Shown piece by piece: positions 7,763 to 37,377 of a stretch of 64,000 bases of DNA. A program made the position numbers and the translations under genes. Within the stretch, counting starts at the first letter, position 1; each line of letters starts with the position of its first letter. The notes beneath the pieces were generated by a model that did no database searches, was not told the origin of the DNA, and was given only the letters and a program-made list of their open reading frames with translations. Source of the DNA: Planctomycetota bacterium (GTDB lineage: Bacteria; Planctomycetota; Planctomycetia; Pirellulales; Pirellulaceae); the NCBI GenBank assembly GCA_026692865.1, contig JAPLNI010000051.1, positions 124,001 through 188,000 on the forward strand, given 5' to 3'.

Positions 7763-9235
7763 CTAACTCAAGCTAATTGTGACAGTCTTGACTTCCGTGT
7801 AAGCCTTGAGGCCTTCTTCGCCCATCTCGCGACCCTGGCCACTCATCTTGAAGCCGCCAAAGGGTGCTGCTGCGTCGAAGACATCGTAGCAGTTAACCCA
7901 GACTGTTCCAGCACGAACGCGACGTGCAAAGTCGTGCGCTCGGGAAAGATCCTTTGTCCAGATTGCTGCTGCGAGACCGTAAAAGGTGTTGTTCGCTCGT
8001 TCTACCATTTCTTCCCAGTCATCGAACGTGAGTACTGACATGACGGGTCCAAAAATTTCGTCTTGTGCGATCGACATCGAATCTTGGACGTTATCAAAAA
8101 CGGTCGGTTGAATGAAGAATCCTTTGTCGCCTGCTCGTTCGCCGCCGGAGACGCATGTTGCGCCTTCGCTTTTACCTTTTTCGATGTAGTGCATGATCTT
8201 GTCGAATTGAGCTTTGTCGATTTGTGCGCCTTGTTCGGTGTCCATCGCCATTGGATCGCCAACTTTTCGGGCTCGGGTAAGCTTCGTAAGCTTTTCAACA
8301 AACTGGTCTTTGATTCGGCGGTCAACAAAGACACGGCTACCAGCACAGCAGCACTGTCCTTGGTTAAGGAACAGTCCGATGTAAGAGCCCGCGACGGCTT
8401 TGTCCAAATCGGCATCGGCCATAATGACGTTTGGGCTCTTGCCACCAAGTTCGAAGGTGAGGCGTTTTAGCGAGTCCGCTGCGTTTCGCATGATGAGCTG
8501 CGCGGTTCGGTGTTCACCAGTGAAGGCGATCTTGTCCACGCCTCGATGTGCCACCAGTGCGCCACCGGCGGTGGGACCGAAGCCAGGCACAACGTTGATA
8601 ACGCCATTGGGAATTCCCGCTTCAGAAGCAAGTTGAGCCATTCGCAAGCAGCTTAGAGGGGTTTGCTCGGCAGGCTTCATCACGATGGTACAGCCAGCAG
8701 CAAGAGCCGGTCCCCACTTCCAAGCGGCCATCAACATTGGGAAGTTCCAAGGAATGATTTGCCCAGCGACTCCAACCGGTTCCTTACGAGTGTAGGTTAA
8801 GTAATTGCCGCGAATGGGAATCGTGCTGCCGTGAATCTTGTCGGCAAAGCCTGCGTAGTATCGAAGGCAATCAATCACGAGGGGAAGATCGGCTGTTCGG
8901 GCTTCTTTATAGGGCTTTCCGTTATCCAAAGACTCCAAAGCAGCGAGTTCATCGGCTTCTTCCTCGATGAGGTCCGCAAGCCGATACATCATTCTGCCTC
9001 GATCCCGCGCATCCATCCGAGTCCAAGGACCTTTGTCGAAGGCTTTCCTAGCTGCTTTCACTGCGCGGTCTATGTCCTCCTGGTCACCTTCAGCGACTTC
9101 TGCAATGACTTCTTCGGTGGCTGGGTTAATGGTTTCAAAGGTTTTTCCGGAAGCGGCCGGAATCCAGGCCCCGTCTATAAAGCAGTCGGTATGCTGGATT
9201 CTAGGGGAACGAACGGGACTGGTGATAGTTGCCAT
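7763..9235 (-). CDS. NAD(P)-dependent aldehyde dehydrogenase
   Basis: The 490-residue product is a standard [16 protein letters not shown] near residue 162, the general-base Glu262 in FELGGKSPN, and the catalytic Cys296 in [11 protein letters not shown]; the C-terminal EIFGPV and PFGGFKMSG segments are also present. It oxidises aldehydes to acids; the substrate is not readable. The usual FTGSTxxG cofactor loop is FTGEHRTAQ here, so coenzyme contacts may differ. A long open frame continues upstream to 9529, but ATG 9235 has a strong AGGAG eight bases before it and begins the normal ALDH N-terminus. Confidence 0.93.
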
Positions 9236-9243
9236 GTTTTTCT

Positions 9244-9249
9244 TCTCCT
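9244..9249 (-). promoter_or_regulatory. Ribosome binding site that fixes the aldehyde dehydrogenase start
   Basis: On the minus strand AAGGAG lies eight bases before ATG 9235. This supports a 490-residue product over the 588-residue open frame that begins at 9529. Confidence 0.75.
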
Positions 9250-9685
9250 TCGGAGGCCTGAGTGTCTGTGGGAAAGGATTACCTACGAAATGATCGCTCG
9301 GATATTTCTCATTTGATGCTTTTCGTTTGAGACTACCGTTTCCAGAATGGGTATGCCAGTAGGCGATGCTATTTCGATAGATCTTGCGCATCGCCAGCAC
9401 GAATTGATTTCTTTCGCTCTCGTCTTCGTCCTTACGAAATTGTTCCGAATCACGTGATAGTACCAATTCTCGCGTGGAAGCTCGCCGTCCAAGTTTGCTC
9501 CAGGAATTCCTAGCAAGCTTTTCAAGCAATCGCTCGTGTTGGTTACCCGCGTTACACCAAGTTTTTGCATCGATTTGCGGTTGTTCGTTGCCGAGTCTGA
9601 CTTTCCTTGTAGTCAGATGGAGGCTACACTTAATTTTTTGGTTCCGGCTGAACCTCTATATTCATTTTCTTGGTAATCGTAAAAA
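9250..9685. other. Intergenic region between divergent ALDH and map genes
   Basis: These roughly 430 bases separate two divergent genes and must hold both promoters. I see no clear -35/-10 pair, no repeat and no convincing small gene. The open frames that cross it have no start signal or recognisable protein motif. Confidence 0.5.
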
Positions 9686-22374: not shown

Positions 22375-22680
22375 TCGTCTCTCGATAATTTTTGGCTAGT
22401 AAAGCTTTGAGTTTATTTGATTTAGCTTTCGGATTGAACTCGGACGAGTCAAATTTCTCGAACGATCTAGCTTCGCTGTTTCCTTTATGGGATGGAACAA
22501 GCCTTTGCTGATGCATTAACATCGCACTCTTCCCCTTCGTTTTGGCTTGAACATAAAGCTTTCACAATTAGTGCTAAGGGTGGATGACAAACCATTGTTC
22601 TTTCCTACAATGTGGCCTGGATGTGGCGGTGTGAAGAGGATGTTCACAGTCGTATTTCAGGGCGATAAACAGACCCCCCA
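22375..22680. other. Intergenic region upstream of the nuo operon
   Basis: This 306-base gap should contain the promoter of the 14-gene complex I operon. No clear sigma-70 pair, hairpin or small gene could be picked out by eye. Confidence 0.45.
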
Positions 22681-23076
22681 ATGCATGGTTTGCAAGCGAT
22701 GAGTTACCTACCGATTCTGCTCTATCTGATTGCCGTAATTGGTTTTGCGGCTGTGTCTCTAATACTTCCACACTTGGTTGCTCCACGGAAGCCAACAACG
22801 ATCAAAGGGATGCCATATGAATCGGGTATGGATCCCGTTGGTGATACGCGAAAGCCACTGGACGTTAAGTTCTACTTGATAGCGATTCTTTTCTTAGTCT
22901 TCGATATCGAACTTCTGTTTCTGTATCCTTGGGCTGTAGCTTTGAACAATCCGGAGGGTATTCCTGCTGAATATCGCATTCCTGTGCTTTGGGTGTTGTT
23001 AGTCCTACTAGCGACTCTCGGTTTGGCTTACATAGTAGCAGTCAAAAAAGGGATATTCGAATGGCGTCGGAAGTAA
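22681..23076 (+). CDS. nuoA: NADH-quinone oxidoreductase subunit A
   Basis: The 131-residue membrane subunit has three hydrophobic helices and the family segments [11 protein letters not shown] (loop 1) and [25 protein letters not shown] (helix 2, given here as a family landmark in residues 60-84). It helps form the quinone-entry region of complex I in the cytoplasmic membrane. ATG 22699 (second Met) is an alternative start. It is the first gene of the operon and its end overlaps nuoB by 16 bases. Confidence 0.92.
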
Positions 23077-23663
23077 AAAAACAACTTGGTGACAATATCT
23101 TTCTCACCACGCTCGATGCAGCAGCATCGTGGGCCCGGTCAAACAGTCTGTGGCCTATGCCTTTCGCTACCGCATGTTGCGGGATCGAATTGATGTCGAC
23201 CGCTGCATCTCGTCACGATCTCTCGCGTTTCGGTAGTGAGGTCATGCGATTTTCTCCTCGGCAGTGCGACTTGATGATCGTGGCAGGTCGGGTGGCTATG
23301 AAAATGCTACCAGTTTTGCAGCGAATTTGGCTTCAAATGCCCGAGCCAAAATGGTGTATTTCGATGGGTGCATGTGCTTGCTCGGGCGGTGTCTTTGATA
23401 CCTATGCGGTTGTACAAGGAATTGATCGCTTCATGCCTGTTGATGTTTACATTCCCGGATGTCCTCCACGCCCCGAGCAATTGATTAAAGCGATTGTTGA
23501 TTTGCAAGAGATGATCAAGGCTGGCGGGACTTACAACGCCAGAGAGTTTGCATTGCGAGACTCGGCCGAGGGCCCTGCACGATTCGATGAAGAGGAGTTG
23601 ATTCGGATTCGCGAACGCAACGGCTTGAAGCTGGATTCGCCCAAGTACGACCCGGTCCACTAA
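23061..23663 (+). CDS. nuoB: NADH-quinone oxidoreductase subunit B
   Basis: The 200-residue subunit carries cluster N2, the last Fe-S centre before quinone. The four ligands are all present with canonical spacing: the tandem Cys39-Cys40 (ATACCGIE), Cys105 (GACACSGG) and Cys134 (PGCPPRPE). ATG 23061 lies inside the end of nuoA and starts the usual N-terminus; the frame is open farther upstream but only within nuoA. It sits in the peripheral arm between NuoD and the membrane. Confidence 0.94.
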
Positions 23664-23723
23664 TGAGTAATTTTTTGTTGGATCTTGGTTGATCGTAAAC
23701 GAAGGATTCAGGAAACTTAAAGT

Positions 23724-24245
23724 ATGGCTTTGGATAACACGACGGTTGGCTCAGAAGTTCAGATTCGATTGCAATCTTCGTTGCCTGATGTTGCACAAAC
23801 TTGGTCGTCTTTCCAAGGGCAAGAACGCGTAGTTGTTCCAGCAAGCCACATTTTGACGTTCCTGAAGGCTTGTCGCGACGTCACAGGTTTTGACCAGTTG
23901 ATCGACCTGACGTGCGTTGATCATCTTGAGATGCAGGGAGCTGTCGACAGATTCGAGCTCGTTTACTGCCTGCTCAGTGTGGATGTGGGAACTCGGCTCA
24001 TCGTGAAGACCTATCTTAACGAACCCAACTTGACTGTTCCTTCAGCGACCCAAGTATGGTTTGGTGCGGATTGGCTCGAGCGTGAAGCTTATGACATGTT
24101 CGGAATCGTCTTTGAGGGGCATCCGAATTTCAAGAGGTTGTTGTTGCCTGACGAGTTTGTATCGTTTCCGTTGCGAAAGGACTACCCGCAACAGGGCCGA
24201 GGCGAACGTCATAACTTTCCTATTATTACGCGTTCAAAAAGCTGA
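23724..24245 (+). CDS. nuoC: NADH-quinone oxidoreductase subunit C
   Basis: The 173-residue peripheral-arm subunit has the family's 30-kDa-subunit signature in the WLEREAYDMFGIVFEGHPN region, followed by RLLLPDEF and FPLRKDYPQQGRGER. It has no cofactor and packs against NuoB and NuoD. It is a separate gene, not a NuoCD fusion. A 60-base gap separates it from nuoB and 82 bases from nuoD. Confidence 0.93.
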   Translation: MALDNTTVGSEVQIRLQSSLPDVAQTWSSFQGQERVVVPASHILTFLKACRDVTGFDQLIDLTCVDHLEMQGAVDRFELVYCLLSVDVGTRLIVKTYLNEPNLTVPSATQVWFGADWLEREAYDMFGIVFEGHPNFKRLLLPDEFVSFPLRKDYPQQGRGERHNFPIITRSKS

Positions 24246-24327
24246 TGGAATTGAACGTGAGTTTTACGATTATGGTCTGTCGGCAGTTTTGTGGCATTCA
24301 GATAAAAGATTGCGGGAAATATAAAAA

Positions 24328-25548
24328 ATGCCTTTAGAACTTCTGGATTCACCAGGATTACTTGAAAACCAAAAAGAGGGTTTGTGGACCCTCAATTTTG
24401 GTCCCCAGCACCCGGCAACGCACACAACGCTCCGGCTTGTTCTTCAATTGGACGGCGAGACGGTCATCGATGCAGAGCCAGACATTGGTTTCTTGCACAG
24501 TGGTTTTGAAAAACTTGGTGAGTCGCTCGACTTCAATCAGTATGTCACGATCGTTGATCGGATGAACTACATTTCACCGTTAGCCAATGAGATCGCTTGG
24601 CATCATTCGGTGGAAGCGCTCATGGGCATTGAGCTGACTCCAAGATGTAAATACATCCGAACGATTTTTGCAGAGCTGATGAGGATCCATGATCACCTGC
24701 TTTGCACTGGAACTTGCGTGTTAGATTTGGGCGGAGCGACCGCTTTCATGTACGCGTTTAACGAACGCGAGTACATCTACGAGATTTGCGAACGAGCGTC
24801 CGGGCAACGCTTTCATACATCCTACACGCGTGTGGGTGGTCTCTTGTACGATGTCACTGATGATTGGATTGCGATGGTTCGGAAGTTCTGCAAAAACTTC
24901 CCTAAGGCTTACGCTGACTTCGCTGGTTTGGTCATGAAGAATCGTATCTTTATTGAACGAACGCGTGGCGTTGGTGTTCTTTCAAAAGAGGACGCGATCG
25001 CTGGTGGAGCTACAGGTCCAGTTGCTCGCGCCAGTGGCGTTACGCGTGATCTTCGAATCGACGAACCCTACTTGGCTTACAACGATTTAGATTTCGATAT
25101 TTGCTGTGCAAAAGCAGGTGACTGCTACTCGCGTTTCCAGGTCCGAATGATGGAAATGGAGCAGAGCCTGAAGATTATCGAGCAAGCTATCGAAAATCTT
25201 CCGTCTGGTCCGATCTACAACGAAGAGCATGGCAAGACCGGCGTCCCAGACAAAACTGAAGTGTATCGAAGTATCGAAGGATTGATCCACCACTTCGAAA
25301 ACATTATGCCGAATCGTCAGATGAACGTTCCGGTTGAATCGTTCTATGCAGCGACGGAATCGCCCAACGGCGAGCTTGGTTACTACATTGTTTCAGATGG
25401 AAATTTCAGGGCCTATCGAGCACGCACTCGGCCACCCTCCCTTCTGCACTTCGCTCTGTTTCCGAGGATGATTCGGAATTGCATGCTGAGCGACGTAGTG
25501 GCAGTTTTGGGAAGCATCAACATTATTGCAGCGGAGTTGGATCGATGA
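24328..25548 (+). CDS. nuoD: NADH-quinone oxidoreductase subunit D
   Basis: The 406-residue 49-kDa subunit shapes the quinone pocket with NuoB. It starts with the LNFGPQHPATHTTLRL segment, whose His contacts the quinone head group in the family, and has GFLHSGFEKLGE, the MNYISPLANE region and the C-terminal SINIIAAELDR end. The size is standard. The stop overlaps the nuoE start in an ATGA arrangement. Confidence 0.95.
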   Translation: MPLELLDSPGLLENQKEGLWTLNFGPQHPATHTTLRLVLQLDGETVIDAEPDIGFLHSGFEKLGESLDFNQYVTIVDRMNYISPLANEIAWHHSVEALMGIELTPRCKYIRTIFAELMRIHDHLLCTGTCVLDLGGATAFMYAFNEREYIYEICERASGQRFHTSYTRVGGLLYDVTDDWIAMVRKFCKNFPKAYADFAGLVMKNRIFIERTRGVGVLSKEDAIAGGATGPVARASGVTRDLRIDEPYLAYNDLDFDICCAKAGDCYSRFQVRMMEMEQSLKIIEQAIENLPSGPIYNEEHGKTGVPDKTEVYRSIEGLIHHFENIMPNRQMNVPVESFYAATESPNGELGYYIVSDGNFRAYRARTRPPSLLHFALFPRMIRNCMLSDVVAVLGSINIIAAELDR

Positions 25549-26015
25549 GTGAGCTTACTGACGACATGAAGGCGAAGATTCGCGAGCACTTCGGTCACTA
25601 TCCGACGAAGCAAGCGATAACATTGCCGGCACTCCACATGGTGCAAGACGCGAAGCGTTGCGTGTCGAACAAAGCGATTGAAGAGATCGCAGACATGCTT
25701 GAGTTGGCTCCATCGCAAATCAACGACACGCTTTCGTTCTATGGTTACTTTCGTACCGAGGATGCTCCGACGGGTGAAAAGCGAGTTTGGATTTGTAGGT
25801 CTCTCCCTTGCATGCTTCGCGGTGGTGAAGAGCTGCTTGCCGAGCTATGCGAACGATGGGGCATTCAGCCGGGACAAACAACTGCCGATGGCAAAGTGAC
25901 GCTTGAGTTGGCAGAATGCTTGGGAGCTTGTGATGGTGCTCCGTGCATGTTGCTGGGCGATGAATTGTCGCTGCGAATGACTGCCGATTCGGTTGAAGAA
26001 CACGTGAAAGGTTAA
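25545..26015 (+). CDS. nuoE: NADH-quinone oxidoreductase subunit E
   Basis: The 156-residue 24-kDa subunit has a thioredoxin-like fold that binds the [2Fe-2S] cluster N1a. The ligand pattern is seen as ICRSLPCMLRG (C-x4-C) and ECLGACDGAPC (C-x3-C). ATG 25545 overlaps the nuoD stop by four bases; a longer frame back to 25479 lies within nuoD and is ignored. It works with NuoF and NuoG in the NADH dehydrogenase module. Confidence 0.93.
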   Translation: MSELTDDMKAKIREHFGHYPTKQAITLPALHMVQDAKRCVSNKAIEEIADMLELAPSQINDTLSFYGYFRTEDAPTGEKRVWICRSLPCMLRGGEELLAELCERWGIQPGQTTADGKVTLELAECLGACDGAPCMLLGDELSLRMTADSVEEHVKG

Positions 26016-26023
26016 TTGTTGCT

Positions 26024-27358
26024 ATGACAAACGCTTCGTTTGAACCAGTATTGCTCGCGCGAATTAACAAGCCTGATAGCGCATCGCTTGCGTCTTATAA
26101 AGCGGACGGTGGGTACGCTGGGTTGCGTAAAGCACTCGACATGACTCAGGCTCAAGTAATCGATCTGGTGAAAGCATCAGGGCTGCGCGGACGCGGTGGA
26201 GCTGGATTTCCTACCGGGATGAAATGGTCATTTCTGCCACAAAACATCACCGGCCCGATTTACATGTGCATCAACGGTGACGAGAGCGAACCCGGCACTT
26301 TTAATAACCGCATTTTGATCGAGGAAGATCCCCATCAAGTTCTCGAAGGAATTGTGATTGGTTGCTACGCGACGCGTGCAACGACTGCCTACTTTTATCT
26401 TCGATACGAATACGGTCACTGCTATCGAACACTTCAAAAAGCAGTCGATGAAATGTATGCCGCCGGGCTTCTCGGAAAGAACATTCTCGGGAGTAATTAC
26501 AGCCTTGATATCCACTTGCATCGTGGTGCTTGTGCTTACATTTGCGGCGAAGAGACCGGGTTGATCGAAAGCTTAGAAGGCAAGCGAGCTTGGCCTCGGA
26601 TCAAGCCACCATTTCCCGCTGTGGAAGGTGCTTTCCGCCGACCGACCGTGGTCAACAATGTCGAGACCATGGCTTGTGTTACGCACATCGTCAATCGCGG
26701 TGCTGAATGGTTTCAATCGATGGGTATCGCTAAGGATCCAAACAATCCACGAGACGCTGGTTCATATGGTCCCAAGTTGTATTGCATTTCCGGTCACGTA
26801 AATAAACCTGGCTTGGTGGAATTGCCGCTGGGTGTTACTGCTCGTGAATTGATCGATAAACATGCTGGCGGTGTTTGGAAGGGTCGCAAGGCGAAGGCTG
26901 TGGTTCCTGGTGGAATTTCGATGGGGTTCATGTCCGAAGCCGAGCTTGATACGCCTCTCGATTTTGCAGGTCCTGGTCGTGTTGGATGCTTGGGACTTGG
27001 TACGGCAGCAGTGATTGTTATTGATGATCATACGAGCATGGTTGATGTGCTGTATAACGCTTGTCGATTCTTTGCACATGAATCATGCGGCCAATGTACG
27101 CCTTGTCGCGAAGGTACAGCCTGGTCGACGAAAATTTTGGAACGAATCCGCTCTGGAAACGGCAAGCTGAGTGACATCGATTTGTTACTTGAGATATCTT
27201 CTTCCATCGGGACAATTCCCGGTACAACAATTTGCGGCTTGGCAGATGGAGCCGCATGGCCGATCAAGACGGCAATCGCAAAGTTTCGCCCTGAGTTGGA
27301 AGAATACATCCGGTCTGGTCGGAAGAGTGCAGCCCCACAACTGGTAGGAGCCCATTAA
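26024..27358 (+). CDS. nuoF: NADH-quinone oxidoreductase subunit F
   Basis: The 444-residue subunit holds FMN, the NADH site and cluster N3. The glycine-rich GLRGRGGAGFPTGMKW (nucleotide binding), GDESEPGTFNNR (FMN) and ICGEETGLIESLEG segments are present. The [4Fe-4S] ligands are Cys355, Cys358 and Cys361 in ESCGQCTPCREG plus Cys404 in TICGLADG. It follows nuoE after eight bases and precedes nuoG by two. Confidence 0.96.
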   Translation: MTNASFEPVLLARINKPDSASLASYKADGGYAGLRKALDMTQAQVIDLVKASGLRGRGGAGFPTGMKWSFLPQNITGPIYMCINGDESEPGTFNNRILIEEDPHQVLEGIVIGCYATRATTAYFYLRYEYGHCYRTLQKAVDEMYAAGLLGKNILGSNYSLDIHLHRGACAYICGEETGLIESLEGKRAWPRIKPPFPAVEGAFRRPTVVNNVETMACVTHIVNRGAEWFQSMGIAKDPNNPRDAGSYGPKLYCISGHVNKPGLVELPLGVTARELIDKHAGGVWKGRKAKAVVPGGISMGFMSEAELDTPLDFAGPGRVGCLGLGTAAVIVIDDHTSMVDVLYNACRFFAHESCGQCTPCREGTAWSTKILERIRSGNGKLSDIDLLLEISSSIGTIPGTTICGLADGAAWPIKTAIAKFRPELEEYIRSGRKSAAPQLVGAH

Positions 27359-27360
27359 AC

Positions 27361-29106
27361 GTGTCGACTGTTTTTGTAAACGACATCGAAGTCGAAGTTG
27401 GTCCGAGGGATAACTTGATCCAAGCGGCTCGCGCTGCGGGTGTAGAGATTCCTCACTATTGTTGGCACGAAGCGTTGTCGGTAGTTGCCTCGTGTCGGAT
27501 GTGCTTGGTCGAAGTCGGCGAAAAGAAGCCTGACGGCACGATCGCGATGGGGCCAAAATTGGTCCCTGCATGTCAAACTCCGGCGAAGCCTGGGACGGTT
27601 GTTAAGACCGAAACTGCCAAAGTGAAAACCGGGCAACAGATGACGCTTGAATTTCTTTTGCTTAATCACCCGCTGGATTGCTCGATTTGCGATCAAGCTG
27701 GCGAGTGCTATTTGCAGGACTACACCTATAAGTTCGGTAAGGCACAGAGTCGGTTAAACGAGCCGAAGGTTCAGCGTTTAGATAAATATCACATTGGTGA
27801 GCAGATAGCATTGTTTACTGATAGATGCGTCATGTGTACGCGTTGTGTTCGATTCACACGTGAAATTAGTGGCACTGCGGAGCTTCAAGTAGTCGCGCGG
27901 GGAAGCGTGGAAGAGATCGATGTGTTTCCAAACAAACCTTGCAACAACAAGCTCGCTGGAAACGTTGTTGATTTATGCCCTGTTGGAGCACTTTGTAGCA
28001 AAGACTTCCTCTACAAAAAGCGGGTTTGGTGGCTGAAAAGTCAGAAGAGCGTGTGTGCAGGTTGTTCGACCGGATGCAGCATTGAAGTCGATCAGAACGA
28101 AGACCATGTGTATCGCCTAAGACCTCGAGCTAATCCATTAGCGCAAGGCCACTTCATGTGCGATGAGGGACGCTTCGGGTTCAAGTATGTTCAAAGCACT
28201 AATCGACTGAGCGGTCCAACTTCCAAGTCGATTGCCACAGTGGGTGTGGCCGCCAGTGCTGTAACGAAATTTAATGGGAATGTCGCTGGTAAATTGTTCC
28301 AGCCAGCAGATCTAGCGGTAGTGGACCATTGGCCTGCTGCAATTCAAGAGGCCCGCGAGAAGATCAAAGCTGCCGTGGACTCCAGCGCGAGTTCCTTTGC
28401 TGCTGTGTTCTCACCAATGATGTCGGTCGAAGAAGCGTATCTCCTTGCTAGTTATTTGAAGGGGCTCAATCGCAATGTGAAATTGCTGATGGGTCCAGTG
28501 CCCGTCGTCGGCGAAGATGATTGTTATCCAAAGAACGTAAACGGTTCTGCTCCAACTGCCGAGAAAACCAAGTTCACCATTCGGGCCGAAAAGTGCCCTA
28601 ATCGCTTGGGTGTAGAGAAGGTCTTGAAGCACTTCCAAGGTGCCCTTGTTCCGATCGAAGACGCAATTCAGGGTGCTCACGGAATACAAGCTTGGTATTT
28701 TGTTGGTGGGTATGCCACGCCTGATGATTCGATCGGTTGGGTGTCGCCGTCAATTGCGAAGGCCACGGAGCCGGCCAAGTTGTTGATCGTTCAGGATATA
28801 TTTCCTTCTGTTTTGTCGAAGCGAGCTGACATCGTCTTCGCTGGTGCGGCATTCACCGAGCGGGACGGAACATTCATCAATCACAGTGGGCTCGCACAAG
28901 CTTTCCGAGCTGCAACACGGCCTCCGCAGGCGAGCCGTGCAGACGGACGCATATTGAATGAGCTTTGCTTGAGACAAGGTCTTTACAATACAGAATTCTT
29001 GCGAAAAGAGATCGCGAGCAAAATCCCTAGTCTCGAGTCGTTGAGCGTTGGTGATCTCGGCGTTCATGGAGTTGAACTGCATCAGTTGGTAGGAGCCCAC
29101 TTATGA
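27361..29106 (+). CDS. nuoG: NADH-quinone oxidoreductase subunit G (short form)
   Basis: The 581-residue subunit relays electrons through several clusters. Seen in order: an N-terminal [2Fe-2S] ferredoxin domain (HYCWHE, SCRMCLVE, PACQTP), the His/Cys cluster motif (HPLDCSICDQAGEC), the CVMCTRCVRF motif and a distal NVVDLCPVGAL Cys. It also has the extra N7 site C-x2-C-x3-C-x27-C starting VCAGCSTGC, found only in some bacteria. The C-terminal molybdopterin-type domain is reduced: NuoG is often 680-900 residues. The start is GTG 27361; the stop overlaps nuoH by four bases. Confidence 0.93.
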   Translation: MSTVFVNDIEVEVGPRDNLIQAARAAGVEIPHYCWHEALSVVASCRMCLVEVGEKKPDGTIAMGPKLVPACQTPAKPGTVVKTETAKVKTGQQMTLEFLLLNHPLDCSICDQAGECYLQDYTYKFGKAQSRLNEPKVQRLDKYHIGEQIALFTDRCVMCTRCVRFTREISGTAELQVVARGSVEEIDVFPNKPCNNKLAGNVVDLCPVGALCSKDFLYKKRVWWLKSQKSVCAGCSTGCSIEVDQNEDHVYRLRPRANPLAQGHFMCDEGRFGFKYVQSTNRLSGPTSKSIATVGVAASAVTKFNGNVAGKLFQPADLAVVDHWPAAIQEAREKIKAAVDSSASSFAAVFSPMMSVEEAYLLASYLKGLNRNVKLLMGPVPVVGEDDCYPKNVNGSAPTAEKTKFTIRAEKCPNRLGVEKVLKHFQGALVPIEDAIQGAHGIQAWYFVGGYATPDDSIGWVSPSIAKATEPAKLLIVQDIFPSVLSKRADIVFAGAAFTERDGTFINHSGLAQAFRAATRPPQASRADGRILNELCLRQGLYNTEFLRKEIASKIPSLESLSVGDLGVHGVELHQLVGAHL

Positions 29107-30257
29107 ACTGGTACGAAATCTGGGCAGAGCTTTGGCCCACGTTGATTGCTATCGGGATTATCTTGGCGGTGGTTCCGGTTGTTGGTTTGTATGCGACTTT
29201 CGTCGAACGTAAATTAGCAGCTGCGGTACAGGACCGTCTTGGGCCTAATCGTGTCGGACCTTTTGGGTTGTTCCAAGCGATTGCTGATGGGATCAAGATT
29301 TTCTTGAAAGAGCAAATCATTCCGTCACACGTGCATACTTTCATTTACATGCTTGCACCCTGCATCAGTCTCATGACAGCTATGTTTGCATTAGCGGTGC
29401 TGCCTTATGGTCCGACTCCAGTCAACTACTTTGGCGGTTTACGTTTTATTGTAATGCCTGGCTTGGATATCAGTTTGTTGATTATGTTTGCGATCAGCAG
29501 CCTTTCTGCTTACGGAATCATCTTGGGTGGGTGGGCTTCGAACAACAAGTACTCTCTATATGGTGCAATCCGATCTTGCGCTCAATTTATTAGCTACGAA
29601 ATCCCAATGGGACTATCAGTTATCGGCGTGATTTTGGTTGCCGGTTCAATGAACATTGAGACTATTGTGGCAAGTCAAGGCTCTGGTGATGGAATCAGTG
29701 GTTGGAATCTGTGGTGGCAACCCTTAGCGTTAATTATCTTCTTCACGAGCGCTCTAGCTGAGACGAATCGACTTCCATTTGACTTGCCCGAATGCGAGCA
29801 AGAACTTGTTGGCGGCTTTCACACTGAGTACGGTGGGATTAAGTTCGTGTTGTTCTTCTTGGCTGAGTACACGCACGTCGTAACTGTCAGCTTTCTAACA
29901 ACCTTGCTTTTCTTTGGTGGATGGCACTTCCCAGGAGTTCCGTCGGAAGTGACTGCTTCGTACGGAATACTGGCATTACAGATGCTAGTCTTATTAGTGA
30001 AAGTTTGCGGTGTGGTTTGCTTTATCATGCTACTGCGATGGGCGTTGCCTAGATTTCGATTCGACCAATTGATGGGGTTGGCTTGGAAGGGATTGATTCC
30101 GCTCGCTATGCTCAACCTCGTTTTTCTAGCTGTGTTCGAAAGTCTGGGATGGCACCGGTGGCCTTTGGCTGTGTTGTCCGTGCTGTTGTTTGTTGCGGCT
30201 GGATATTGGAGTGCTTGGCAATCGCAATCATTCGTTCGGAAAGCTTCGGTTACATAA
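29103..30257 (+). CDS. nuoH: NADH-quinone oxidoreductase subunit H
   Basis: The 384-residue membrane subunit, with about eight helices, links the quinone cavity to the proton channels. Family landmarks are VERKLAAAVQDRLGPNRVGP after the first helix, the ADGIKIFLKE loop, AETNRLPFDLPECEQELVGG and HTEYGGIKF with its acidic residues on the cytoplasmic loop. It overlaps nuoG by four bases; nuoI follows after 71. Confidence 0.95.
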   Translation: MNWYEIWAELWPTLIAIGIILAVVPVVGLYATFVERKLAAAVQDRLGPNRVGPFGLFQAIADGIKIFLKEQIIPSHVHTFIYMLAPCISLMTAMFALAVLPYGPTPVNYFGGLRFIVMPGLDISLLIMFAISSLSAYGIILGGWASNNKYSLYGAIRSCAQFISYEIPMGLSVIGVILVAGSMNIETIVASQGSGDGISGWNLWWQPLALIIFFTSALAETNRLPFDLPECEQELVGGFHTEYGGIKFVLFFLAEYTHVVTVSFLTTLLFFGGWHFPGVPSEVTASYGILALQMLVLLVKVCGVVCFIMLLRWALPRFRFDQLMGLAWKGLIPLAMLNLVFLAVFESLGWHRWPLAVLSVLLFVAAGYWSAWQSQSFVRKASVT

Positions 30258-30328
30258 GCCGCATTTGTATAGAACATTGCGTTGACGCATAGCGAGTTGA
30301 AATCGCATTAACAGTTTGGTGAATAGTT

Positions 30329-30979
30329 ATGAGTACTGCTGAGACACCTGTCGCACAGGTTGAAAAGAAGCAAAAAAAGAAAACAGTCCAGTGGGGAGAC
30401 GACCCTAAGATTGGCTTCGTTGAAGCTTTGTATCTTCCGGCAATTGCTGGCGGAATTGCGACTGCTTTGAAGCACGCTTTTTTTAAGAAGCGATCAACGG
30501 CACAGTATCCAGAGCAAAAGCCAGAGATGCCGCCCAACTATCGCGGCGTGCATCGTTTGAATCGTGACGAAGAGGGACGTGTAAAGTGCGTCGCCTGTTA
30601 CATGTGCCAGACAGCTTGCCCTGCCAATTGCATTGAGATCATTGCAGCACCTGCACCACAAGACGATCCGAAGTGGGCCAATCGCGACAAGTTCCCCGCT
30701 ACCTTTACGATTGACGAGTTGCGGTGTATTTATTGTGGCATGTGCGAAGAAGCATGTCCGGTGGATGCGATTGAACTCACAAGCATCTACGATCTTACCG
30801 GGATGAGTCGGCAGGAGATGATTTTCGATAAGGAAAAGCTCTTATCCGTATTTGATGAAACATCCAAGGCTGGTCTTGATCCAGTAAGAACAAATCGAGG
30901 CGCACTGGGTCCAGCTTCGGAGAAGTCAATGCAATCAACTGACTCGCCTCCACCACCTGGTCGCGGTAAACACGGTTAG
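30329..30979 (+). CDS. nuoI: NADH-quinone oxidoreductase subunit I
   Basis: The 216-residue ferredoxin-like subunit holds clusters N6a and N6b through two C-x2-C-x2-C-x3-C motifs: CVACYMCQTACPANC and CIYCGMCEEACP. Its first 25 residues are Lys/Gln-rich and longer than in typical NuoI, and the C-terminal 40 residues are a polar tail. It contacts NuoB and NuoH at the base of the peripheral arm. Confidence 0.95.
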   Translation: MSTAETPVAQVEKKQKKKTVQWGDDPKIGFVEALYLPAIAGGIATALKHAFFKKRSTAQYPEQKPEMPPNYRGVHRLNRDEEGRVKCVACYMCQTACPANCIEIIAAPAPQDDPKWANRDKFPATFTIDELRCIYCGMCEEACPVDAIELTSIYDLTGMSRQEMIFDKEKLLSVFDETSKAGLDPVRTNRGALGPASEKSMQSTDSPPPPGRGKHG

Positions 30980-31039
30980 AAAAGCGACGCACAATAACTG
31001 ATCGCTTGAGAACCAAAGTACCTAAGGAATTTAGATAAA

Positions 31040-31813
31040 GTGGATTTATCCAAAGTTAATTATCTCACACAGTGCGTGAATGTCATTGCACAATCCGATC
31101 TGGATAAGCTAGGAGTTCCTAATTGGAGCCTCATGGCATTTTTTTGCATCGCATTGGCTGGCTTTGGTTACTATTGCCTTCAATACGGAGTAGTAAAATC
31201 TAATGCGATGATAACTGTTGGCGTCGTTGCGTTGCTCGCATCTGGCTTGCTCATCGCGGTCACTCAAAATCCATCGTTAGAGTTGTATGTCTTCTATGCT
31301 TTTGCAGGGCTTGCAACCGCAGGCGGCGTTGCGTTTTTAACTGCGAGGCAACCCGTGTATTCGGCACTTGGGTTTGCGACCGCAATTCTTTCAGGGACGG
31401 GCGTTTTATTTATGGAGTCGGCTCACTTCGTAGCGGCCGCTACCATGATCGTTTACGCAGGTGCAACGATTATCATCTTCTTGTTTGTTCTGATGTTCGC
31501 TCAACAAGGCGATCTCACAACTTATGATGTGAAGTTAAACAATCCAGCGATCGCAACCGTAATCGGTGCGATTTTGCTTGGGACAATTGTTATGTGTGTT
31601 CAGGCTGTTCCAGAGTCTGATGCGATCGCTGGGAATGCGGCAACTGCTAGGCCATTGAGTCAAAGTGGTGAAGCCGAACCTAGCGGTACAGCACGACTCG
31701 GTCGATCGATGTTTACAGAGTATCTTTTCATGGTCGAACTCGCAGGAACGCTCCTGCTAGTAGCAACGATCGGTTCAATCGCTGTCGCTCAACGAAGTCT
31801 CGAGGCGGAATAG
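31040..31813 (+). CDS. nuoJ: NADH-quinone oxidoreductase subunit J
   Basis: The 257-residue membrane subunit has five hydrophobic helices. The third helix region reads AATMIVYAGATIIIFLFVLM, matching the pi-bulge-containing helix of NuoJ. It has a N-terminal extension of about 30 residues compared with usual NuoJ (around 170-200) and a polar Ser/Glu-rich loop before its last helix. It starts at GTG 31040; its final base is the first base of the nuoK start. Confidence 0.93.
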   Translation: MDLSKVNYLTQCVNVIAQSDLDKLGVPNWSLMAFFCIALAGFGYYCLQYGVVKSNAMITVGVVALLASGLLIAVTQNPSLELYVFYAFAGLATAGGVAFLTARQPVYSALGFATAILSGTGVLFMESAHFVAAATMIVYAGATIIIFLFVLMFAQQGDLTTYDVKLNNPAIATVIGAILLGTIVMCVQAVPESDAIAGNAATARPLSQSGEAEPSGTARLGRSMFTEYLFMVELAGTLLLVATIGSIAVAQRSLEAE

Positions 31814-31905
31814 TGACTCAAGAAACAACTCACCTAATCTATTTCGGTAGCGCGATTTTCACGCTGGGGATGATTGGATTCCTAACGCGAAGATCGATGA
31901 TATGC
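31813..31905 (+). pseudogene. nuoK: N-terminal fragment of nuoK, out of frame with the rest
   Basis: From GTG 31813 (sharing one base with the nuoJ stop TAG) the frame encodes LIYFGSAIFTLGMIGFLTRR and then SMI, which is helix 1 of NuoK and the loop after it. The frame then leaves the family pattern and stops at 31987-31989. The rest of NuoK continues in a frame reached by stepping back one base near 31902. The position, directly coupled to nuoJ, shows this is the true start of the gene. Confidence 0.7.
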
Positions 31906-32273
31906 TCGCCGGGGTCAGCATCAACTTGGTTGCGTTTTCGAAACAGCATCATAATTATCAGGGACAAGTTCTCGCGATTATCATCCTGACGGTTGCCGCA
32001 TGCGAAGCAGCGATCGCTCTTGCGTTAATCGTGTCGCTATCACGCCGTAAATCCACATTGGATATACAGGCTTGGTCGGAATTGAATGAGGTTCCGATGA
32101 GAACCGCTGAGGTGCCTGTCGTAATGGTCGATCAAGTCAGACACTATCCTAAGTTGACTCCGGCAGGCTTGGAGCCTTCATTGACGCCGTCTCCTGTGGA
32201 GTTGGGATACGAAAACTGGAACGAATTAGGCGAGAATACTGATACGCCAATGGAGAAGACACAGAATGCTTGA
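31902..32273 (+). CDS. nuoK: NADH-quinone oxidoreductase subunit K, C-terminal part (frameshifted gene)
   Basis: The 123-residue frame encodes the second half of NuoK: the end of helix 2 (MLAGVSINLVAFS), helix 3 with the conserved buried Glu (VAACEAAIALALIV, Glu35 of this frame) and a polar tail with KLTPAGLEP, which I recall as common in planctomycete NuoK. Helix 1 lies upstream in another frame (31813-31905). Compared with the family (RRN-I-VMFL-x2-E-MML), about seven or eight residues including the helix-2 glutamate are missing. This is either a real disabling deletion or a sequence error. ATG 31902 itself is not expected to be the natural start. It overlaps nuoL by eight bases. Confidence 0.75.
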   Translation: MLAGVSINLVAFSKQHHNYQGQVLAIIILTVAACEAAIALALIVSLSRRKSTLDIQAWSELNEVPMRTAEVPVVMVDQVRHYPKLTPAGLEPSLTPSPVELGYENWNELGENTDTPMEKTQNA

Positions 32274-34230
32274 GATGCTCGCCTGGGCTATTCCCGTGGC
32301 GCCGTTGGTTGGGTGCCTTGTTTGTACGATCCTTGCGTTTCAGGGAGATCGTGATTGGGCTCATTGGCCAGCCGTTATGGCGTTGGCTGTATCGGCTATT
32401 TGCACCCTTGCATTGGTCGCAACATTCAGTGATGAATCTGGAGCGGCAGTTGTACACGGTTATACGTGGCTCGACATTGGCTCGCTGCGACTGGACGTTT
32501 CACTTCGATTAGATTCGCTCTGCCTTACGCTACTTTCGGTTGTGACTGTCGTAAGTTGTTTAGTTGCGATTTACTCGCGAGAGTACATGCGTGGCGATCC
32601 CGGTTATGCCAGATTTTTTGCTGTTTTCAGCGGCTTCGTCTTTTGCATGACGATGCTTGTAATGGCGAATAACTTGCTTCTGCTTTACGCATTTTGGGAA
32701 GGCGTGGGAACCTGTAGCTACTTGTTGATTGGCTATTACTATCGCAAACCATCGGCAGCCAAGGCGGCGGTCAAAGCATTCTTGGTCAATCGCGTCGCGG
32801 ATTGCGGATTCCTTCTCGGGATCTTGTTGCTTTCGTATGCGATAGGACAAACAACCGTTGGAGCGGGTGCATCTGTCGTGGGTCGATTGGATTTCGCGAC
32901 GATCTTCGCTTCCTCTCAAGAGTTGTTCAATAAGTTCCCTGAGCTAGTTGGTTGGATTGCGTTCTTGTTAGTTATCGGTGCGATCGGCAAGTCGGCTCAG
33001 TTTCCACTTCACGTGTGGTTACCAGACGCCATGGAAGGTCCGACGCCCGTTAGCGCTCTTATTCACGCGGCGACGATGGTTACGGCAGGTGTCTACTTGA
33101 TGGCAAGGATGGCTCCGTTGATGGTCTACGCACCGGATGTTTTAGTGACACTTGCTTGGCTTGGAGCAATCACTTCCATCGCTGCGGCTGTAATGGCAAT
33201 GTTCCAATATGACTTGAAGCGGGTGCTGGCTTATTCGACTGCAAGCCAACTTGGCTATCTGTTCATGGCGTTGGGTTGCATTGCAGTTCCGGACATGATG
33301 ACGATCGCTGTTATGGCGGCAATGTTTCACTTGTTTACGCACGCTTTCTTCAAGGCCTTGCTGTTCTTGTCTGCCGGTAACGTGATGCATGCCATGGGAG
33401 ACGTCATCGACATGCGTTACTTCTCGGGGCTACGTAAGATTTTGCCAAAGACAAATATTTTGTTTGGGATTGGTGCGGCAGCCTTGGCGGGTTTACCACC
33501 TTTCGCAGCGTTCTTCAGCAAGGATACAATTCTCAGTCTCTTGTCAGATGCGAGCGCCGACACGGATTACGGCGGGCACTTTACAGGACTGATGGTCGTT
33601 GGATTTTTGACGGCATTTTTGACTGCGATTTACACCTCGAAGACATACTTCCATACTTTTTGGGGTAAGGAAGTTACTCCGCCGGAAGCCGGTGATCATC
33701 CACACGAAGCGACGACAATTATGTTGCTGCCAATGGTAATTCTAGCGGTTGGTGCAATTCTCGCTGGGCTCGCACTTGGACCGACCGGTTGGATTTTGCA
33801 CTACATTGCAAAGACTCCGGGAATGGACGCTCTACACGGTGAGCATCATGAAGCGATGTGGGTATTGGTGACATCTACACTTGTTGCCCTGATCGGCGTT
33901 GGTATCGGATACAAACTTGCCCAAGCTTCAACAGCGAATTCCAAGGCCGTTTCGAATGATTTCGTTACAGCGATTGGCGATTTCGGCAGGAATCGTTTGT
34001 ACATCGACTCGATCTATCAAGCCTTGATAGTGACACCTTCTGAGTGGTTTGCAAAATGGTTAGGTTGGTTCGACGAAACCGTTGTCGATGGCTTAACACA
34101 ATTGATTGGTCAGTTACCTGGTTTTGTCGGTTTATTGCTGAAGCGATTCCAGACGGGCATGGTGTCGTCTTACGCGATGGTGACTGCTTGCGGGATAGCG
34201 GCATTGGCTCTTTGGATTGCGACGCAATAG
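32266..34230 (+). CDS. nuoL: NADH-quinone oxidoreductase subunit L
   Basis: The 654-residue antiporter-like subunit has about 14-16 membrane helices and the long lateral helix. Family landmarks include NNLLLLYAFWEGVGTCSYLL, the KSAQFPLHVWLPDAMEGPTP loop and VSALIHAATMVTAGVYLMAR, with the Glu and Lys/His residues of the proton path. The C-terminal lateral-helix and anchor helix end at ALWIATQ. It overlaps the end of nuoK by eight bases. Confidence 0.95.
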   Translation: MLEMLAWAIPVAPLVGCLVCTILAFQGDRDWAHWPAVMALAVSAICTLALVATFSDESGAAVVHGYTWLDIGSLRLDVSLRLDSLCLTLLSVVTVVSCLVAIYSREYMRGDPGYARFFAVFSGFVFCMTMLVMANNLLLLYAFWEGVGTCSYLLIGYYYRKPSAAKAAVKAFLVNRVADCGFLLGILLLSYAIGQTTVGAGASVVGRLDFATIFASSQELFNKFPELVGWIAFLLVIGAIGKSAQFPLHVWLPDAMEGPTPVSALIHAATMVTAGVYLMARMAPLMVYAPDVLVTLAWLGAITSIAAAVMAMFQYDLKRVLAYSTASQLGYLFMALGCIAVPDMMTIAVMAAMFHLFTHAFFKALLFLSAGNVMHAMGDVIDMRYFSGLRKILPKTNILFGIGAAALAGLPPFAAFFSKDTILSLLSDASADTDYGGHFTGLMVVGFLTAFLTAIYTSKTYFHTFWGKEVTPPEAGDHPHEATTIMLLPMVILAVGAILAGLALGPTGWILHYIAKTPGMDALHGEHHEAMWVLVTSTLVALIGVGIGYKLAQASTANSKAVSNDFVTAIGDFGRNRLYIDSIYQALIVTPSEWFAKWLGWFDETVVDGLTQLIGQLPGFVGLLLKRFQTGMVSSYAMVTACGIAALALWIATQ

Positions 34231-34247
34231 GATATTGATTTAAAGAA

Positions 34248-35885
34248 ATGACTTCTCAACTACTTATTCCATTGCTTGTTTTCCTTCCAATTTTGGTGGG
34301 GATAGTACTCTGCCTTGTTGCAGGGAAAAAAAGCTCGTGGATCTCCGACATTGCGACTAGCTTCTCTGGGTTAATGGTGATCGCGGCTATTGCTTTGCTG
34401 TGTGCCGTTCATAGTGCTCAAGGCAATTCTGAAGCGGTTGGATTGATTCAACCACAGATTGTTTTTGGACCTTCTTGGATGGAGCTTAAGCTTCCCTTTG
34501 CAATTCAAGGACATAGCGTCAATTGGCAATTGCAATTGGGTGCGGATAGCTTCTCAGCCATGATGGTCCTGCTGACGTCACTTGTTACGTTCGCTGTTCT
34601 TATGACGGCTCGCACGCAAATCACAGAGCGAAGGGATCTCTACGACGGGATGATTCTCATCACCCAAGGAATCTTGATGGGTATTTTCCTTGCGATGGAT
34701 CTGTTGCTGTTTTATGTCTTCTTTGAAGCAGTTTTGATCCCGATCATTTTGTTAATGAACATCTGGGGTGATCCGAAAGAGTCGCTACGCGCATCACGCA
34801 AGTTCCTGCTGTTCACGTTGGCTGGTAGCATTCCGATGATTGTTGGTATCGTTGGAATTGTTTTGCAATCGGCAACAGCCGACCGTGCCTCGACAGTACT
34901 TCTTCCTCAGCTTTCTGCGATTGCCTTCGAGTCCCAATTGACACGAGGCGTTACGGAAAATTTTGCGACTAGCCAGTTCCTTATTCTGGCGGCCTTGATG
35001 CTTGGCTTTGGAATCAAGATGGCTTTATTGCCGCTGCATAGTTGGCTTCCAACGACTTATTCAGCATCGCATCCGAACACCACTGCTTTGATAGCGGCTG
35101 TAGTCGGAAAGCTGGGAGTTTATGGACTGCTTCGAATCGTTCTACCTTTGACACCGGTTGCGTTGTCTGTGTATTACCAGATTGTAGTTGGAACCTTGGG
35201 TGCAATTGCGATTGTTTACGGGGCATTGATCGCATTAAGGCAAACGGATTTGAGGCGGTTGATGGCCTACTCATCGCTTTCGCACATGGGCTTTGTAACG
35301 CTCGGCCTGATGGCGATGAATCGTGAAGGGATCGCGGGAGCGACCATTCAGATGTTCAACCACGGTCTAATCACTGCTGCGATATTTCTGATGATTGGGA
35401 TGATTGAGCAACGTAGAGGTCGATTGGTCCTGGGCAATGAAAATTTTGGGTTAGCAGCCGCTTATCCGCATCTCGGTTTTTTGATGGTTTTCTTTACGCT
35501 TGCTGGTGCCGGCTTACCAGGACTCAATAGTTTTGTCGGCGAAATCTTAGCGTTGATGGGAATGCTTCGCGTTTCGGCTGGCATTGTTGGGATCGCAGTA
35601 TTGGGTACCGTTTTGGGTGCGTGGTATGCATTGCGGGTGTTGCAGCACGTGATGTTCAGTAGCGATGGAAAGACCAATAAACGCGACGCAGCAACGGCCG
35701 ACATCGGTTGGGCAGATTGGGCCGCGCTCGCTCCTTTAGCATTGTTGTGTGTCGTTATCGGTGTCCGTCCTTCGACCTTCACCGATACCATGAAAGTCGA
35801 CGTGGATCGAATGGCTGTTTCGCTTGAGCCAGCAGCCAAAGCACTACATCCAACGATCGATACGCTTGCAGTAGTGAAGAAATAA
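34248..35885 (+). CDS. nuoM: NADH-quinone oxidoreductase subunit M
   Basis: The 545-residue antiporter-like subunit has about 14 helices. It shows the NuoM pattern FFEAVLIPIILLMNIWG, KMALLPLHSWLPTTYSASH (NuoM has HTWLPDAHxxAP in many species), AVVGKLGVYGLLRI and RRLMAYSSLSHMGFVTLG. Together with NuoL and NuoN it forms the proton-pumping arm. It sits 17 bases after nuoL. Confidence 0.95.
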   Translation: MTSQLLIPLLVFLPILVGIVLCLVAGKKSSWISDIATSFSGLMVIAAIALLCAVHSAQGNSEAVGLIQPQIVFGPSWMELKLPFAIQGHSVNWQLQLGADSFSAMMVLLTSLVTFAVLMTARTQITERRDLYDGMILITQGILMGIFLAMDLLLFYVFFEAVLIPIILLMNIWGDPKESLRASRKFLLFTLAGSIPMIVGIVGIVLQSATADRASTVLLPQLSAIAFESQLTRGVTENFATSQFLILAALMLGFGIKMALLPLHSWLPTTYSASHPNTTALIAAVVGKLGVYGLLRIVLPLTPVALSVYYQIVVGTLGAIAIVYGALIALRQTDLRRLMAYSSLSHMGFVTLGLMAMNREGIAGATIQMFNHGLITAAIFLMIGMIEQRRGRLVLGNENFGLAAAYPHLGFLMVFFTLAGAGLPGLNSFVGEILALMGMLRVSAGIVGIAVLGTVLGAWYALRVLQHVMFSSDGKTNKRDAATADIGWADWAALAPLALLCVVIGVRPSTFTDTMKVDVDRMAVSLEPAAKALHPTIDTLAVVKK

Positions 35886-35922
35886 TTTTCGTTTGAACTG
35901 GGTTTGTGGCTCGGAGTGTTTT

Positions 35923-37377
35923 ATGTCGGTGTCGGAACAAATGCTTGTCTCGTTGAAGTGGATGTCACCCGCGTTGGTGCTCCTGTTTGGCGGCTGCTTG
36001 ATACTATGCTCGAGCGTTTTCCTAAGCCCGTTGAAGCCAACCGGTGTGGATAATCGTCGTAACTTGATGGCATCGATCTCGATGTTTTTCTTAGTTGCAG
36101 CGGCCGCTTTCCACTTGCTCGTTACAAGCCATATCTCTACCAACACGATCGACTCTTGCCTCTTTCGTTTCGATAGTATCTCAATCGCGGCAGAGAGACT
36201 CGCGTTAATCGGGGGTGTCATCTTAATTCTTTTAAGCTGGTCACTCGCTCCAAAGAATTACTTGCCGGAATTTTACGGATGTCTGCTTTTGATTCTTGCT
36301 GCGATACCGATTATCGGCGCGTCGAATGACTTGATCGCAATGTTCTTGGGGTTGGAACTCGTAAGCATTCCCACTTACATCATGTTAAGTATTGCCAAAG
36401 GGGATAACGCTAGTTTCGAAGCGGCCCTCAAGTACTTCACACTTAGCGGGTTCGCATCTTGCTTTTTCCTGCTTGGAATTAGCTTCCTCTATGGTTTGTC
36501 AGGTTCGATGGATTTGGGAAGTGTTTGTGCGATGCTTGGCAACGGTGGCGGCGGGAAGCTTGGGCTGTTGGCGGTGCTTTTGATTTTGTGCGGTTTAGCC
36601 TTTCGAATCACAGCCGTCCCGTTTCATTTCTATGGGCCTGATGTTTTTGAGGGGACTTCTCTGACCATGGCCGCTGTGATGAGCTATCTACCCAAAGTAG
36701 CAGGGTTTGTCGCGATGGTAAGACTGTTCGGAGCGTCTCCGGTCGGGGAGTCTCTCACTCCGATGGTAGTTCCCGTGTTGCTTGTGACATCGGTTTTGAC
36801 GATGTGTATTGGCAATGCACTGGCCGTAGCACAAACCAGCTTGCGTCGATTACTTGGCTATTCAAGTATAGCGCACACCGGCTATTTGTTGCTTGGGTTC
36901 GCTGCGTTGATTTTGAGTAGCGCGGAGCCTCAAGTCCTTTTCACTTATCTCGCGGCCTACGCGGCGATGACACTCGGTGTTTTTGCTTGCTTGGCAGAAG
37001 TAGACGAAGCTGGCGGGCAGTCGATCGTTGTTGGCGATCTCTCTGGAATGTATTACCGAAGACCGGCGGCATCTATTGCGATGGCAATCTGTCTTTTATC
37101 TTTAATTGGTTTGCCGCTCACTGCGGGCTTCGTGGCAAAGCTTCAACTGTTCTTTGCCGCTGGTGGAGCCAATCGATGGGACATGACTGTTTGTGTTTGG
37201 GTGATGGCGATCAACGCTGCGGTTGCTGCTGGGTATTATTTCAGATTGTTAAGTAAGCTGTTCGAACGAGGACTGGATTTACCGCCGTTGCGATTGTGGC
37301 GGCCAAGTCTTTTCCTGGCCTATTCTTTATGTGCTGTGCTTACGATTGTTTGGTTCTTTCAACCGACATCGATGTAA
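35923..37377 (+). CDS. nuoN: NADH-quinone oxidoreductase subunit N
   Basis: The 484-residue antiporter-like subunit is the last gene of the operon. The landmarks are MFLGLELVSIPTYIMLSI, FRITAVPFHFYGPDVFEG, RRLLGYSSIAHTGYLLLG and the late ASIAMAICLLSLIGLPLTAG stretch. ATG 35923 is chosen because a GGAG lies a few bases before it and helix 1 follows directly; an in-frame TTG at 35893 would add ten residues. No clear terminator was found in the 147 bases that follow. Confidence 0.94.
   Translation: MSVSEQMLVSLKWMSPALVLLFGGCLILCSSVFLSPLKPTGVDNRRNLMASISMFFLVAAAAFHLLVTSHISTNTIDSCLFRFDSISIAAERLALIGGVILILLSWSLAPKNYLPEFYGCLLLILAAIPIIGASNDLIAMFLGLELVSIPTYIMLSIAKGDNASFEAALKYFTLSGFASCFFLLGISFLYGLSGSMDLGSVCAMLGNGGGGKLGLLAVLLILCGLAFRITAVPFHFYGPDVFEGTSLTMAAVMSYLPKVAGFVAMVRLFGASPVGESLTPMVVPVLLVTSVLTMCIGNALAVAQTSLRRLLGYSSIAHTGYLLLGFAALILSSAEPQVLFTYLAAYAAMTLGVFACLAEVDEAGGQSIVVGDLSGMYYRRPAASIAMAICLLSLIGLPLTAGFVAKLQLFFAAGGANRWDMTVCVWVMAINAAVAAGYYFRLLSKLFERGLDLPPLRLWRPSLFLAYSLCAVLTIVWFFQPTSM

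Follow-up and report, generated by a model that had tools for sequence, protein, structure and literature searches.

The complex I operon in this planctomycete genome carries a nuoK gene split over two reading frames, and we lean slightly towards reading this as a very recent, private 25-base deletion that truly occurred in the strain or population and inactivated nuoK, the rest of the operon being intact. An artefact of the assembly is a near-equal rival. The window, that is, the whole stretch of 64,000 bases that was analysed, is part of contig C51 of a draft genome (G000) with 72 contigs, 5.55 Mb, and 99.4% completeness. The genus is represented by two genomes, this one and G001.

Structure of the split nuoK gene

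A GTG at 31813 on the forward strand, overlapping the nuoJ stop codon by one base, opens a 58-residue nuoK frame among the window ORFs, with its stop codon at 31987-31989. The 5' part of the gene (31813-31900, +) encodes helix 1 and the start of helix 2 as far as RRSMI, and runs into an out-of-frame tail (31901-31989, +). The 58-residue product had no Pfam or NCBIfam match. The remainder of nuoK occupies 31902-32273 (+) and lies in the -1 frame relative to the upstream part; it supplies the latter half of helix 2, helix 3 carrying the other conserved glutamate, and a C-terminal extension, and it matches positions 33-93 of PF00420. The split described in the earlier note, with a gene that begins at GTG 31813 and continues one base back near 31902, was seen both in the frames and in the alignment with G001.

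In G001 (L021), nuoK is a single frame of 161 residues, scoring above the NF004320 and PF00420 cut-offs. Its alignment with the window gene contains a single gap of exactly 25 bases after window base 31900, with matching flanks, and the junction (31900-31901, +) shows about one base of microhomology when compared with G001. The length falls within the 22-25 bases estimated earlier from the window. Likewise, the seven or eight residues thought to be missing, including the helix-2 glutamate, proved to be eight, corresponding to residues 31-38 of G001 NuoK with Glu37, the equivalent of E. coli Glu36. The statement that the frameshift removes helix 2 was right for about the first half of the helix, whereas the rest of it is still encoded in the other frame. 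The nuoK of the closest relative, with which a comparison had been suggested, has one frame and carries the 25 bases. A related assembly restoring bases and frame had been held to count against the break; G001 does restore both, but it shows the ancestral state and is no proof of an error here.

Judged as a member of the NuoK/ND4L family (PF00420, Oxidored_q2; NCBIfam NF004320), the window gene retains the location expected of a functional NuoK, between nuoJ and nuoL, together with helix 1, the latter half of helix 2, and a helix 3 whose glutamate (E. coli Glu72) is kept as ACEAAI in 31902-32273. It differs from the family in having two frames broken at 31900 instead of a single frame with three transmembrane helices, and in the absence of the helix 2 glutamate together with the first half of that helix. 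Both the helix 2 and the helix 3 glutamates are E in 137 of the 137 locus matches covering them; 140 loci were matched, the other three being the window's own gene, and the loci are partly redundant (G001 occurs several times), with 99 distinct segments. E. coli NuoK E36 is placed on the E-channel proton path (PMC13324432), and the E-channel is described as built from NuoH, NuoJ, and NuoK, with several conserved glutamates (PMC9271201).

As a separate observation, NuoK in this genus extends about 60 residues past the canonical family end (window 32090-32273; L021). The family profile match ends at residue 99 of the 161-residue G001 protein, and matches to the extension reach residues 130-159 in several other genomes of the family.

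Occurrence of the break among relatives

The contig scan, which may leave out the window's own record, returned the record of G001 as the only close relative (98%, L036), and the next stood at 61% (L037). When the G001 NuoK was submitted as the query, 110 of the 241 family genomes matched, G000 and G001 included, and among the matches listed for these 110 genomes nuoK was split over two frames only in G000. Four further candidates were rejected. The nuoK of G101 (C237) appeared as two match pieces, yet it is one frame with an insertion; the gene of G120 is cut by contig ends; in G253, the stops in the match fall beyond the gene end; and the stop in G027 was placed past the gene end by inference, as the family-matching stretch of this gene is free of stops. 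The G101 insertion (L149 597-1100, -) is in frame, about 20 residues long, and lies between helices 2 and 3. Among the papers found to mention both NuoK and a frameshift, none concerns planctomycetes, as judged by title.

Selection on nuoK and state of the operon

The two parts of nuoK differ between G000 and G001 by 62 synonymous and 4 non-synonymous changes, the latter all conservative (I/V, I/V, V/I, and T/S); the 5' part has 1 non-synonymous difference in 29 codons. By Nei-Gojobori counting, with a high dS and equal branches assumed, dS was 1.14, dN 0.012, and dN/dS 0.010. Had the lineage evolved neutrally throughout, about 196 non-synonymous changes would be expected, and neutral evolution can account for at most about 5% of it. 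The relaxed selection that should follow the break in a long-standing pseudogene is not seen in either part. Such strong purifying selection on both parts implies that nuoK was unbroken until a very short time ago, or is intact even now.

The complex I operon, nuoA-nuoN, spans 22681-37377 (+), with 13 of the 14 genes intact and a DNA identity to G001 of 86%. As the earlier note had judged, the thirteen other genes are sound: none has a frame-breaking gap relative to G001, all match their Pfam families, and their dN/dS ranges from 0.008 to 0.043. Upstream of the break, nuoJ (31040-31813, +) is intact, as is nuoL downstream (32266-34230, +), which has one in-frame 6-base difference from G001. 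The nuoL ATG precedes the nuoK stop codon (32271-32273) by 5 bases.

In the operon alignment, the stretch at 32169-32280, covering the end of nuoK and the start of nuoL, differs from G001 at 1 of its 112 bases, against about 15 expected. This is the lowest divergence in the 15-kb alignment and was reached in 1 of 1000 codon-block shuffles. Among the ten lowest-divergence stretches, seven are at gene junctions, at gene starts, or just before nuoA (besides 32169, those at 22549, 22975, 25974, 27292, 34184, and 35892), and three are inside genes (30477, 31526, and 36064). It looks as if start regions or translation coupling may constrain synonymous sites at these stretches. Between 31700 and 32400, we counted three promoter-like matches (shuffle mean 0.8), each at the minimum of 9 of 12, and one terminator-like site, compared with 0.5 in shuffles.

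Search for a second NuoK and for other NADH dehydrogenases

The earlier suggestion that a second nuo cluster or nuoK lets the organism tolerate the broken gene found no backing in the assembled genome. The G001 NuoK query matched nothing but the two pieces of the split gene, no contig of the assembly holds an intact nuoK, and NuoH is present in one copy. The only other PF00420 match, on contig C49, was rejected as MrpC/MnhC; this protein shares the Pfam family with NuoK but scores above the cut-off of NF006573 (Na+/H+ antiporter subunit C), and by eye it adjoins a frame resembling another mrp subunit. A second PF01512 match (C57) was also discarded as a sign of a further nuo cluster, being a fused NuoE/NuoF-like protein. 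This fusion has 640 residues (L034 700-2622, -), and its contig has no NuoH or NuoK match.

Regarding other NADH dehydrogenases, NQR2_RnfD_RnfE had no match in the genome. A 430-residue protein matched Pyr_redox_2 with 171.6 bits and NDH2_C with 28.1 against a cut-off of 27.7, and no NCBIfam model was above its cut-off among the best 25 of its 43 matches; it is a probable type II NADH dehydrogenase. G001 likewise has an NDH2_C match in a frame of the same length, alongside its intact nuoK. Since a probable type II enzyme is encoded, loss of complex I may be survivable. Pseudomonas aeruginosa can grow with nuoK mutated, and its NADH/NAD+ ratio is then raised (PMC3197603).

Control for frame breaks in the assembly

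For the control of assembly quality, the window and 20 further stretches of the same genome were compared with 21 G001 sequences, and alignments of at least 800 bases and at least 75% identity were kept. The kept alignments involved the window and 4 of the 20 stretches on one side and 4 of the 21 G001 sequences on the other, with 60,156 aligned bases in all, half of them around the nuoK locus. Indels were counted when a stop-to-stop frame of at least 120 codons enclosed them in one genome but no such frame did so in the other, a filter that some breaks can escape. Of the 32 indels listed, only the one in nuoK clearly breaks the frame of a conserved gene.

Three clusters of small indels fall in frames of uncertain reality (L158 8790-8795, L166 9863-9875, and L167 1916-2057), and most of the others lie, by eye, between genes or on the strand opposite to nuo or other genes. 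The indel at L166 10578 was dismissed as a gene break because it falls upstream of an intact 352-residue frame, and those at window 9380-9561 because they are in the upstream leader of the gene at 7763-9529. For this minus-strand gene, the 5' end of the frame (window 9309-9561) is matched by no G001 frame, and its true start is probably further downstream than the listed TTG. With the control largely clean, the assembly is not visibly indel-rich.

Interpretation of the nuoK break

A recent deletion would account for these results as a single event of 25 bases, very young, in a sequenced strain or population whose operon has been under selection until now. In favour of a real mutation, the bases are missing in one block with clean flanks, nuoK is the only clear break of a conserved gene in the compared sequence, both parts bear the mark of selection until almost the present, no second split nuoK occurs among the listed family matches, and the probable type II enzyme could make the loss survivable. 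The competing explanation, to which we give somewhat under an even chance, is that the cells have an intact nuoK and that the 25 bases were lost in assembly or consensus, or that the contig represents a minor variant; graph simplification, gap closing, consensus calling, and a mixed population were considered as routes. An intact gene would explain why both parts have stayed under purifying selection until the present and why no other gene of the operon is relaxed or broken, and a break private to one assembly and conserved elsewhere is also the pattern that an assembly error would give. Furthermore, such a block can be lost locally in a 72-contig draft, and the junction lacks a repeat: no direct repeat is found at the endpoints as inferred from the G001 sequence, so that a repeat-driven deletion was rejected and slippage, the usual way in which short deletions arise, is not evident. 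A hairpin-driven deletion was rejected as well, as the G001 segment showed no stronger folding than its shuffled versions (z 0.48). Against an artefact stand the largely clean remainder of the compared sequence, the absence of any other contig with an intact nuoK, and the block itself, which is not an error of the homopolymer type, as the earlier note had also argued.

It is very unlikely that NuoK is produced in two chains, or through ribosomal frameshifting at 31900, and works in a shortened form. This reading could draw on the selection seen on both parts and on the in-frame ATG at 31902, but recency explains the selection equally well, helix 2 is cut in half, and its invariant glutamate would be absent from any product. 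Programmed ribosomal frameshifting uses a slippery heptamer of the form X-XXY-YYZ, a stimulating structure, or both. No such heptamer is present at the junction TCG-ATG-ATA-TGC-TCG, RNA structure around it is at chance level (fold z 0.12), and no stop-start overlap serves ATG 31902, nor was a reinitiation signal seen there. Conservation in relatives, expected of a programmed frameshift, is also missing, as G001 has a single frame and no other split occurs among the listed matches. Neither frameshifting nor reinitiation would restore the eight lost residues, and recoding, which the earlier note had offered as an option, is unsupported. E. coli complex I is reportedly severely impaired when NuoK Glu36 is replaced, in work attributed to Kao in 2005 and Torres-Bacete in 2012. 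A functioning complex I built around NuoK in two pieces, with neighbouring carboxylates taking over the proton path, is very unlikely. An older, established pseudogenisation, with a type II NADH dehydrogenase replacing complex I, is highly improbable too. The probable type II enzyme is compatible with it, and 131 of the 241 family genomes have no match to G001 NuoK, a number that counts matches and not complex I losses; however, the 13 other nuo genes are intact with dN/dS of 0.008-0.043, nuoK itself stands at 0.010, and G001 combines its NDH2_C match with an intact nuoK.

If the recent deletion is real, translation would stop at 31989 and no three-helix NuoK would be made. Because nuoL starts just before the regular nuoK stop codon, termination at 31989 would also be expected to weaken nuoL translation or uncouple it from that of nuoK. 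Complex I of the strain would then be inactive or unassembled, and the probable type II NADH dehydrogenase could oxidise NADH. The break resembles an ordinary frameshift pseudogene or a spontaneous nuo loss-of-function mutant in its one frame-breaking deletion, conserved operon, and lack of a compensating copy in our search, and it differs from them in being known from the assembly alone. The finding has little reach beyond this genome, in which an annotation would either miss nuoK or show it in two pieces and a metabolic model could get complex I wrong. Should the deletion exist in the cells, the window would show a planctomycete caught very soon after a natural mutation knocked out its complex I.
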